The notes under the pieces: generated by a model
Databases searched by the model: none
What the model was told of the DNA's origin: nothing
Seen by the model: the letters and a program-made list of their open reading frames with translations, nothing else
Made by a program: the position numbers and the translations under genes
Shown: one piece after another, positions 48,640 through 52,139 of the stretch
Position numbering within the stretch: the first letter of the stretch is position 1
Layout of the letters: each line of letters starts with the position of its first letter
NCBI GenBank assembly: GCA_021323595.1
Contig: JAJPKR010000019.1
Location: 1-54,686, forward strand
From: Terriglobia bacterium
Lineage (GTDB): Bacteria; Acidobacteriota; Terriglobia; Terriglobales; SCQP01
Reading direction: 5' to 3'
DNA: 54,686 bases

Positions 48640-49164
48640 TCAAAAGAAGAGGTACTTGCGCCACTTTTCGTCGCCGTGTCCCATCATACGCATCAAATGA
48701 CGGCTGGTGTGCAAGTTGAAGGGACGCGGCTCGCGCAGCAGCCGCATGCCGGCTTCTTCCGGCAGGCGGTCGCCCTTGCGATGGTTGCAGCGGTGGCAGC
48801 AGGCGACCAGGTTCTCCCACGAGCTGCGGCCGCCGCGCGAGCGCGGTACGACGTGATCGAGCGTCAGCTCCGGCGCGCTGCAGGTGCGCCCGCAATATTG
48901 GCAGCTATGGCGGTCGCGCAGCAGGATGTTCTTGCGCGACAAGGCGCGTGTGCGGTGGGGAATGCGCCGGTAGTCGAGCAGGCGGATCACCGACGGCACC
49001 GGGAACGCCACCCGCGCCGAGTGCAGGCAATGGCCGTTGATCTCTTCCGCGTGCGCCACCCCCTTGAGCACCAGCACCAAGGCGCGGCGCGCGGCGCACA
49101 CGTTGATCGGCTCGTAGCTGGCGTTGAGCACCAGCACCGGCTGGAACAGGGCCGCGGCGCTCAT
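48640..49164 (-). CDS. HNH endonuclease family protein
   Basis: 174 residues. The HNH domain is [20 protein letters not shown], then [20 protein letters not shown] and HRKG, with both CxxC zinc pairs and the catalytic His. The N-terminal 90 residues ([20 protein letters not shown]) are typical for the widespread chromosomal HNH family found outside restriction systems; its role is not established. The ATG overlaps the comF stop by four bases (ATGA). Confidence 0.9.
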
Positions 49165-49790
49165 GCGCCTTCCTCCCCGCCGCCGGGCGTGGCGGCCGCG
49201 ACCCAGCGCAGGTCGGCGCGGGCGTAGGTCAGCACGTGCACCGCGGCCGCTCCCGCCCGCTTCAGCGCCGTCGCGCAGGCGCCGGCGGTCGCGCCCGTGG
49301 TCAGCACGTCGTCCACCAGCAAAATGCGCCGGCCGACGGCTTCCTTGGCGCGCGCGCGGAACGCGCCCTCGACGTTGCGCCGCCGCGCTTCCGCATCCAG
49401 CCCGGATTGCGGCGCGGTCTCGCGCCGCCGCGCCAGCGCCGCCGGCGCCAGGCGCAGTCGCCGCCGCCGCGCCAAGGCGCGCGCGATCGCCTCGCTTTGG
49501 TTGAAACCGCGCCGCCGCCGCCGGCCCGGCCCTAGCGGCACCGGCACGATGACGTCCACCGCCGGCAGCGGCGCCGCCGCGAGCGCCGCCGCGATCCAAG
49601 GCGCCGCCGTTCGCACCTGCTCATATTTCAGCAAATGCACCAGCGCCCGCGCCGTCCCGCGATAGTGAACGCAACTGCGCGCGCCGTCGTAGGCGGGCGC
49701 CGCGGCGCGGCAGCTCAAGCATCGGCCTTCCTGCCCGGCCATGCCGCGCCCGCAGCTCGGGCAAAGATCGTCTTCAGCGATGGTTTCCAC
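49161..49790 (-). CDS. comF: ComF-family phosphoribosyltransferase (N-terminus uncertain)
   Basis: 209 residues from GTG at 49790. The phosphoribosyltransferase domain has [20 protein letters not shown], the PRPP loop [14 protein letters not shown] and the usual comF spacing. One zinc finger (DLCPSCGRG, then GRCLSCR) is inside. The same frame continues upstream without a stop to 49979 and encodes another typical finger: ALFPSPCRICSQPL (Cys codons at 49857-49859 and 49848-49850) and PVCEGC. No usual start codon exists in that extension, so the gene probably has a frameshift, or a sequence error, near a T/C-rich run at about 49866-49880, or uses a rare start. ComF aids DNA uptake in competent bacteria. 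Confidence 0.82.
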
Positions 49791-50044
49791 GGCAGCCAGG
49801 CAGCCTTCGCAGACCGGAAGGCGCCGCCAGTGGGCAAGCGGCTGGGAGCAGATGCGGCAGGGAGAGGGGAAAAGAGCGCAAAAGCTCCGCCCTGCGAGTT
49901 GTGACCAAACAACCGAGAGCCCGCTTTGGCCGGTGCTACTGCTGAAAACAACCTCCGCTGCCTGAAAAAATCGGCCTTCTCAGCAGGATTCTAGCACGCT
50001 GCCTCCCGCCGCTCGTGCCGCTGGCCTTTCTTGCCCGCTAACGC

Positions 50045-50410
50045 AGAGCCATAGCGCAGGCATTCACCAACCGTCGGGCGGGCATTCTTGCCCGCCGACC
50101 CAGAGCCGTAGCGCAGCAGTCTTGCCTGCCAACCCAACGCTCGTAGGGCAGGCATTCCTGCCTGCCCTACGGTTTGCAGCTAGCCGCCATCGCAACCGGC
50201 AGCCGTAGGGCAGGCATTCTTTCCTGCCAACCCGACGCTCCCTCAGCGCCCGCGGGGCAGGCATTCTCGCCTGCCATCCCGCCTTTTGCAAATCGTCCGC
50301 CCCGCCTGCCCGCCCGAAGCTGCAGGGCAGGCGTTCCTGCCTGCGAACTTCCCTCAGCTAACCACCACCCCAACTGGCAGCCGTGGGGCTGGCATTCCTG
50401 CCTGCCAGCC
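50045..50410. repeat. Cluster of short palindromic repeats with ATTCYT-type loop
   Basis: At least seven related hairpins lie at about 50077-50096, 50113-50130, 50142-50171, 50203-50228, 50254-50275, 50324-50345 and 50381-50410, with a decayed one near 50057. The common core is GGGCAGGCATTCCTGCCTGCC: arms of 7-12 bp around ATTCCT or ATTCTT. The unit at 50142-50171 has perfect 12-bp arms. Spacing is irregular (about 30-70 bp) and the sequence between units is partly similar (for example CAACCCGACGCTC-like). Open frames across it translate to repetitive, low-information sequence and are not genes. Confidence 0.8.
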
Positions 50411-50575
50411 AACCTCAATAAAGCGCCCATCCAGGGATCCCGGCCAACTCCGCAGGCCCAAACCGAATCCTACTTACGAGGCCCCCCAGGGGTAGCCTCC
50501 GCGGATCGCGCCTCGGCGCCTCCGCCGCTGTTTGACAACTGAATAATGTGGCCGCGCCTTGCTCGGGCGTTAGAC

Positions 50576-50608
50576 AAGGAGGGAATCGCGTGCGTCGATT
50601 CCCTCCTT
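50576..50608. terminator. Perfect 13-bp hairpin, possible terminator
   Basis: Arms AAGGAGGGAATCG (50576-50588) and CGATTCCCTCCTT (50596-50608) flank a 7-base loop. On the plus strand it is followed only by TC then G residues, so it is a weak candidate for an intrinsic terminator; no gene ends close by. It could also be the end of a decayed mobile element. Confidence 0.4.
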
Positions 50609-50971
50609 TCGGGGGGCCTACTTTTGGGTTCCGCCCGTTGGGAAGCTCAACACTGCAAGCAGCCCACGCGAGCCCGTGTGCCACCTGCAAACCCAAGCGC
50701 CGCAATCGCTTAGCCGCCAGCACGCGTTCGCCGCGCCGCAGGGGGCGTTGACCTGTACTTCCGACCAGGAGACCATTTTTTCGGCCGCAGCCACGCCGTG
50801 TTCTTCCGTGTAACCGATTGACTGTACGGCACTTGCACAGCATCCCGCGCATTGCGGCGAATCTGCCCTGGTCTCTCCCCCCGCATCGGTGTAAAGAATG
50901 TCCCGGAAGGCCGGCGAAGCCCCCTGCACCTCGGCGACTCAAGACCCCGTCGCTAAGACTTGCTCGCGCCC

Positions 50972-51020
50972 GGCAGGCAAGAATATCTTCCCCACGCCTG
51001 CCAGGCAGGAATACCTGCCC
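50972..51020. repeat. Two palindromic repeat units in inverted orientation
   Basis: Units at about 50972-50991 (GGCAGGCAAGAATATCTTCC) and 51001-51020 (core AGGCAGGAATACCTGCC) belong to the family clustered at 50045-50410, as reverse complements. Their loops read AAT-A/TATC instead of ATTCCT. Confidence 0.65.
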
Positions 51021-51161
51021 CACTGAAGAAACAGCCGAGCGGCACAACCATTCCACTCCGGCCCGCATCTTCTCCCGTTGGGGGACTTCTTAGGTCTGAG
51101 AAGCCTTTGACGCACGGCCGTTGCGCACGGCCTCGTCCGGGACTGTTCTAGAGTGCTAACC

Positions 51162-52139
51162 ATGCCTCGCGCGATCAACGTCCTGGCTCTCGACGGCGGC
51201 GGCATTCGCGGCATCATCGCCGCGCATCTCTTGCAGGCGCTATCGCAGCGGGCGGGTGCGCCGCCGCACCAACTGTTCGATCTCATCGCCGGCACCTCGA
51301 CCGGCGGCATCATCGCGCTGGGCGTCGGCGCGGCGGTGCGCGACGGCGCGCCGGCGGAAACATCGGAGCTGCTGGACCTTTACATGAGCGAGGGCCCGCG
51401 CATTTTCGCCCGCCATTGGTACACGGGCATGACGCAATATCTGCGTCCGAAATATTCGCCGCGTCCGCTGGAGGCGGTGCTGGCAAAATTCTTCGGCGAG
51501 GCGCGCTTGGCCGGCGCGCTCACGCCGCTGCTGATCGCCAGTTACGATCTGCGCTCGCAGCAGCCTTTCTTTTTCAAGAGCCACCGCATCGCCGCCGACG
51601 CCAGCTACGACTGGCCGCTGCGGCTGGTGGCCCGCGCCACCTCCGCCGCGCCCACGTATTTTCCCCCGCTGCTGGCCGCGCGCGGCCCGGCGCAGTATGC
51701 CTTCGTGGATGGCGGCATCCTCGCCAACAACCCCGCGATGGCCGCCTACGCCGAAGCGCGCCGGCTCTATCCCGGCGCCGCCGCCATCAACCTGATCGCC
51801 ATCGGCACCGGCGACCGCTTCGATGCGCTGCCGGTGCGCCCGGCGCGCCGCTGGGGCCTGCTGCAATGGGCGCGCCAGATCGTGCCGGTCATGATGGATA
51901 GCGTCTCCGAAGGCGTGGATTACGAGCTGCGCGAGGTGCTGCGCCCGCCGCTCGCCGGCGCCTTCTTTCGCCTCCAGCCGCAACTCCAGCGGGCATCACC
52001 GGCCATGGATGACGTCTCCCCCGCCAACTTGCGCCATCTCGCCGACGACGCGCGGCGCTTCTTGGAGGAGCAGGCGCCGCTCGTCGCGCAAGCCGCGGCC
52101 GCGCTCGCCCCGCGCGGCGCCGGCGCCGCTGGCGGCTAG
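51162..52139 (+). CDS. Patatin-like phospholipase
   Basis: 325 residues. The Ser-Asp dyad and oxyanion loop are clear: INVLALDGGGIRGIIAAHLL, nucleophile in LIAGTSTGGIIALGVG, and Asp in AFVDGGILANNPAMAAY. A RATSAAPTYFPP segment and the C-terminal helical region resemble the CapV/cGAS-associated branch of patatins, but no cyclase, sensor or other defence gene is adjacent, so a housekeeping lipid acyl hydrolase is equally possible. ATG at 51162 is preferred; GTG at 51153 would add three residues. A TAGAGT box ends 7 bp before the ATG, suggesting a leaderless message. Confidence 0.9.
   Translation: MPRAINVLALDGGGIRGIIAAHLLQALSQRAGAPPHQLFDLIAGTSTGGIIALGVGAAVRDGAPAETSELLDLYMSEGPRIFARHWYTGMTQYLRPKYSPRPLEAVLAKFFGEARLAGALTPLLIASYDLRSQQPFFFKSHRIAADASYDWPLRLVARATSAAPTYFPPLLAARGPAQYAFVDGGILANNPAMAAYAEARRLYPGAAAINLIAIGTGDRFDALPVRPARRWGLLQWARQIVPVMMDSVSEGVDYELREVLRPPLAGAFFRLQPQLQRASPAMDDVSPANLRHLADDARRFLEEQAPLVAQAAAALAPRGAGAAGG

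Follow-up and report, generated by a model that had tools for sequence, protein, structure and literature searches.

A GTRG-tagged REP element family in an acidobacterial genome, probably orphaned from its RAYT transposase

The hairpins described here occupy positions 50045-51023 of the window, by which we mean the whole 54,686-nt stretch of Terriglobia bacterium DNA that was analyzed. They sit in a 1.36-kb divergent gap between two genes identified by coding-potential prediction. One is a ComF-like phosphoribosyltransferase gene (49161..49790, minus strand), whose Pfam Pribosyltran match is weak and below the curated cut-off (E 1.7e-5), and the other is a patatin-like phospholipase gene (51153..52139, plus strand; Pfam Patatin, E 2e-26). 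On the plus strand, the cluster has six well-formed units, a degenerate one and a half unit; the minus strand carries two more units. Searching the window with a 20-nt core returned seven matches at up to three mismatches, all inside this cluster, versus 0.02 expected from shuffled sequences. An Rfam search of 49700-51300 at E ≤ 1 gave zero matches. Between the two groups of units lies a second dispersed repeat of ~330 nt (50440-50785, plus strand), of which the genome holds about 20 copies.

Inspection of the units reveals a shared anatomy of 24 nt, in which a GTRG tag is followed by an 8-bp stem (GGCAGGCA/TGCCTGCC) closed by a TTCC tetraloop. The tag consensus directly 5′ of the stem is GTGG or GTAG, and the tag is degenerate in several copies from this genome. 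A preliminary description of the window had reported a conserved ATTCCT-type loop; the conservation holds, but the A and T of that motif pair with each other, leaving a TTCC or TTCT tetraloop on a stem of 8 bp. A covariance model trained on copies from this genome identifies eight strong units in the window and one degenerate unit (50108), along with a mirror-image hit at the unit that is fully symmetric. On the plus strand, the array opens with a half unit at 50050..50065, read directly and aligned, of which only a degenerate ATAG tag, the 5′ arm and a portion of the loop remain. The unit at 50073..50096 (GTCG GGCGGGCA TTCT TGCCCGCC; 35.2 bits, E 7e-6 in the window) has a stem A-T pair changed to G-C, and the degenerate unit at 50108..50130 (GTAGCGCA-GCAGTCTTGCCTGCC; 14.2 bits, E 0.5) is also recovered as a repeat-finder family. 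The consensus unit, GTAG GGCAGGCA TTCC TGCCTGCC, lies at 50143..50166 and scores 41.4 bits. With its flanks it forms the perfect palindrome noted earlier, at 13 bp (50142-50171) rather than the 12 bp then given, and its DNA fold reaches -17.3 kcal/mol (z -8.5). Four more plus-strand units follow at 50205..50228 (GTAGGGCAGGCATTCTTTCCTGCC, 35.4 bits), 50252..50275 (GCGGGGCAGGCATTCTCGCCTGCC, 36.5 bits), 50322..50345 (GCAGGGCAGGCGTTCCTGCCTGCG, 32.2 bits) and 50383..50406 (GTGGGGCTGGCATTCCTGCCTGCC, 38.2 bits), while the inverted units occupy 50972..50995 (GTGGGGAAGATATTCTTGCCTGCC, 31.1 bits) and 51000..51023 (GTGGGGCAGGTATTCCTGCCTGGC, 35.3 bits) on the minus strand. The original estimate of about nine hairpins, seven or eight in one direction and two inverted, is reached when the broken units at 50108 and 50050 are counted; eight are strong.

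Spacing between window units is irregular (70, 62, 47, 70 and 61 nt), and a tandem repeat of unit plus spacer, 56 nt long at 82% identity, recurs at 50177 and 50355. As had been proposed from the letters alone, the array is neither a CRISPR, which is ruled out by the irregular spacing, the palindromic units and the genome-wide dispersal of copies, nor a series of intrinsic terminators, since a T run follows none of the window units.

A core restricted to the window would have spoken against a mobile or structured family. Instead, the tagged pattern occurs in 31 copies at up to three mismatches in the 3.55-Mb assembly (20 at up to two), versus 0 for a reversed-pattern control. The covariance model, which the preliminary description had suggested for counting and placing copies, finds 36 copies with E < 0.005, rising to 42 when the cut-off is relaxed to E < 0.1, in mixed orientation, and four copies are still exactly consensus. 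With genes placed by a home-made codon-usage gene caller on stretches fetched around the copies, 36 of the 42 are intergenic, though coding regions make up 84% of the sequence examined (binomial p 1e-22). Neighboring genes are tandem, divergent or convergent; units often lie within 100 nt downstream of a stop codon, and many are found between divergent genes, like those of the window. The viral contigs searched contain zero exact copies of the unit or of the 3′ end of the second repeat.

These properties identify the hairpins as REP elements of the GTRG-tagged superfamily, an assignment that is well supported because the tag adjoins a short palindrome, the copies are dispersed and ~86% intergenic, and Y1/RAYT genes lie alongside in relatives. 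The 24-nt palindromic unit falls within the 20-40 nt of the class and is present in many dispersed, mainly extragenic copies, with the tag 5′ of the stem and with stem changes that are strongly compensated across genomes. The resemblance first drawn to REP/BIME-type elements is borne out for REPs, through tag, dispersal, intergenic bias and the RAYTs of relatives. The BIME part of the comparison fails: most window units follow one another in the same orientation every 47-70 nt, the only inverted ones being more than 560 nt distant, and BIME or REPIN pairs are absent from the array.

The GTAG-tagged REP superfamily was described by Di Nocera et al. 2013 (PMC3733652), and the present family has in common with it a palindrome that directly follows a GTAG/GTGG tag, stems that change in complementary fashion, mostly intergenic dispersal and a RAYT link. 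Acidobacteriota are absent from the phyla for which that article lists GTAG repeats, and only TIR-flanked transposases are reported in it for Acidobacteriota. The kind of element is known, and this member appears to be new for Acidobacteriota relative to that account. It may equal one of the listed families, for example the GTGG-rich GTAG-20 of Opitutus terrae. A literature search for the literal core sequence returned no paper. Among Group 3 REPtrons, Stenotrophomonas REP-Sm (PMC8266576) is similar in that GTAG directly precedes a perfect 8-bp palindrome with a tiny loop, in that case of 3 nt, whose bases matter for cleavage. In contrast, the acidobacterial unit, known here from sequence alone, has a 4-nt TTCC loop, another stem and mostly a GTGG tag.

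Within the phylum, the number of copies varies sharply from genome to genome. Only six of 60 relatives scanned carry any copy at up to three mismatches, with 11 in a genome of the same family (G007). Among 396 other genomes of the phylum, only eight have any copy at up to two mismatches, three of which hold 77, 57 and 51. Exact matches to the 24-mer, among those listed from all species genomes, fall in Lentisphaerae, Planctomycetota, Verrucomicrobia, Hydrogenedentes, Latescibacterota, Kiritimatiellae and Acidobacteria; most of these genomes are metagenome bins, and single odd matches may be binning errors. Hairpin copies are very numerous in the planctomycete Isosphaera sp. PR.3.33 (PNKH01; L050, L058, L059, L064 and others), where exact ones form close inverted pairs ~30-60 nt apart, the true BIME/REPIN layout.

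To the extent that the preliminary description invoked RAYT transposases, relatives confirm the link. REPtrons, in which tagged hairpins flank Y1/RAYT genes, are present in four other Acidobacteriota: G007 (L209), G237 (L268), G086 (L276) and G287 (L284), the last with both copies downstream of the gene. The same hairpin flanks Y1/RAYT genes in Planctomycetota (L096), Verrucomicrobiota (L086), Kiritimatiellota (L123) and one unclassified bin (L120). The two sides of a gene carry one and the same hairpin variant, as with GACAGGCT-TTCC-AGCCTGTC around that of G086. On the Kiritimatiellota contig (L123, 77-146), two inverted REPs lie within the RAYT frame and leave it unbroken, so that the REP is read as protein. 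A tree of 93 Y1 domains places the REP-flanked proteins mainly in one 22-row group with modest support (84/80; inner group 95/78), and the single Y1 protein of the window's own genome in an 18-row group whose members lack these REPs. The residues by which E. coli TnpA-REP reads GTAG are W94, Q95, E/D100, H/R101 and R104 (PMC6006769). The corresponding motif, WQ-x4-[DE][HRS]-x2-[RH], matched to TnpA-REP numbering by residue spacing rather than by structure, is present in 16 of 22 members of the REP-flanked group versus 0 of 18 in the other. RAYTs of relatives conserve HVH, Y..NP and WQ-x4-[DE][HR]-x2-R.

In the own genome, the transposase side of the link falls away: the RAYT clade is absent from the assembly. 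A profile of REP-clade RAYTs matched only the already known Y1 gene, and the assembly contains no RAYT flanked by the same REPs and none with the GTAG-reading residues. The assembly consists of 65 contigs at 97.6% completeness, and a RAYT could be missing from it rather than lost. Contig ends of C54 and C26 (L296, L297) and of C43 and C46 (L310, L309) fall inside copies of the second repeat, often near REPs; contigs that end in repeat copies leave assembly gaps at places where a RAYT could hide.

Paired changes between the arms, noted from the window, are weak evidence within the own genome and strong across genomes. In other genomes, 128 of 179 changes in the 5′ arm are compensated, versus 2-5 when the partner is shifted by 1-3 columns, and the loop is TTCC in 191 of 240 perfectly paired tagged hairpins. 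Such paired stem changes alongside a constant tag and loop suit recognition by a RAYT. In the own genome, most double changes concern one stem position (A-T to G-C), and 78 of 500 shuffles reach the observed score. Changed sites are compensated in 6 of 64 cases among own copies versus 57 of 121 in other genomes (p 9e-8), a contrast that is indicative only, as the other-genome loci were partly picked by exact match and copies are related. The low own-genome compensation is suggestive of a REP family that may no longer be renewed here.

Taken jointly with the class assignment, our preferred reading, to which we give a probability of roughly 0.8, is that the ~40 copies are an orphaned and decaying set of REPs, left behind by a RAYT that formerly spread them and is now lost or unassembled. 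TnpA-REP binds its hairpin as single-stranded DNA, using the GTAG tag and, in group 3 proteins, bases of the loop as well, and cuts at a nearby C|T (PMC8266576). By analogy, each 24-nt unit would be a putative single-strand hairpin substrate (GTGGGGCAGGCATTCCTGCCTGCC). A RAYT from the clade represented in the same-family genomes G007 and G002 would have bound tag and loop on exposed single-stranded DNA, cut, and rejoined nearby, seeding copies in intergenic DNA; part of the growth of the window array may be due to tandem copying of a REP together with its spacer. The cognate RAYT would later have been lost from the window's lineage, or may lie inside an assembly gap, and the remaining copies would lose stem pairing by drift. 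Given the four copies exactly at consensus, the amplification need not be old.

These results place a GTRG-tagged REP family in Acidobacteriota, with the same hairpin code beside RAYT genes in several distant phyla. Relatives with a RAYT and the own genome without one offer a natural comparison for asking whether transposase recognition or a host function keeps the hairpins intact. A bolder extension, for which we would put the odds a little short of even, is that horizontally moving RAYTs have made the GTRG...TTCC code common to at least four phyla, with stems that compensate while a RAYT is present and decay uncompensated after its loss. If true, lost selection on REP stems would be measurable by comparing RAYT-bearing with RAYT-less genomes.

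Two other accounts dispense with a lost RAYT. The only Y1 transposase of the genome (C63:29811-30131, minus strand; locus L008 1156-1944) encodes an intact 262-aa protein with HUH and catalytic Tyr and, sharing the genome with the REPs, might mobilize them in trans today. We regard this as very unlikely: the gene is flanked on both sides by its own 21-bp terminal inverted repeats (CGTAAAAGGGGACAGCCTGAT), which are unrelated to the REPs, no REP of the GTRG family lies near it, and the protein both groups with Y1 proteins not flanked by these REPs and lacks the GTAG-reading motif, with WQNRFFSCPLE in the equivalent stretch. It fits instead the TIR-flanked 'TIRYT' type (PMC3733652), its terminal inverted repeats bearing GGGGACAG, with no link to the hairpins. 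Alternatively, selection might keep the hairpins as RNA or DNA regulatory parts (transcript-end stabilizers, attenuators, gyrase or IHF sites) with no role in transposition. Regulatory roles have been suggested for REPs of other bacteria (PMC3733652), and the intergenic bias and frequent position within 100 nt past a stop codon would suit them. Units nonetheless occur in both orientations relative to genes and often in divergent gaps, their stems are poorly maintained in this genome, and most close relatives are without them, which makes this account unlikely as well.

The second repeat raises a further alternative, namely that the ~330-bp element at 50440-50785 is the real unit of a single composite repeat that makes up the interval, with REPs as incidental ends. 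At four places (C64, C55, C54 and C26) a REP does lie the same short distance upstream of the element, but these four cases look like segmental duplication. REPs are missing from the vicinity of at least 11 element copies, and most REPs in turn lack a neighboring element, such that the composite account is largely refuted and retains only a minimal probability. Since most of its copies stand apart from REPs, the second repeat is not part of the orphaned REP family favored here. Where both ends are present it measures 310-345 nt, with sharp ends (GGCCAAC ... GTTGACCTGTACTTCCGRCCAGG) and copies 70-94% identical. It was not found in 40 relatives or in 297 genomes of the phylum, in the latter with few candidates scored per genome. 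All 17 copies examined are intergenic, and the repeat may represent either a MITE or a non-coding RNA present in multiple copies. It is well structured (z -4.1), and its hairpin GGAGGGAATCG/CGATTCCCTCC carries compensated changes, with a total covariation term near zero.
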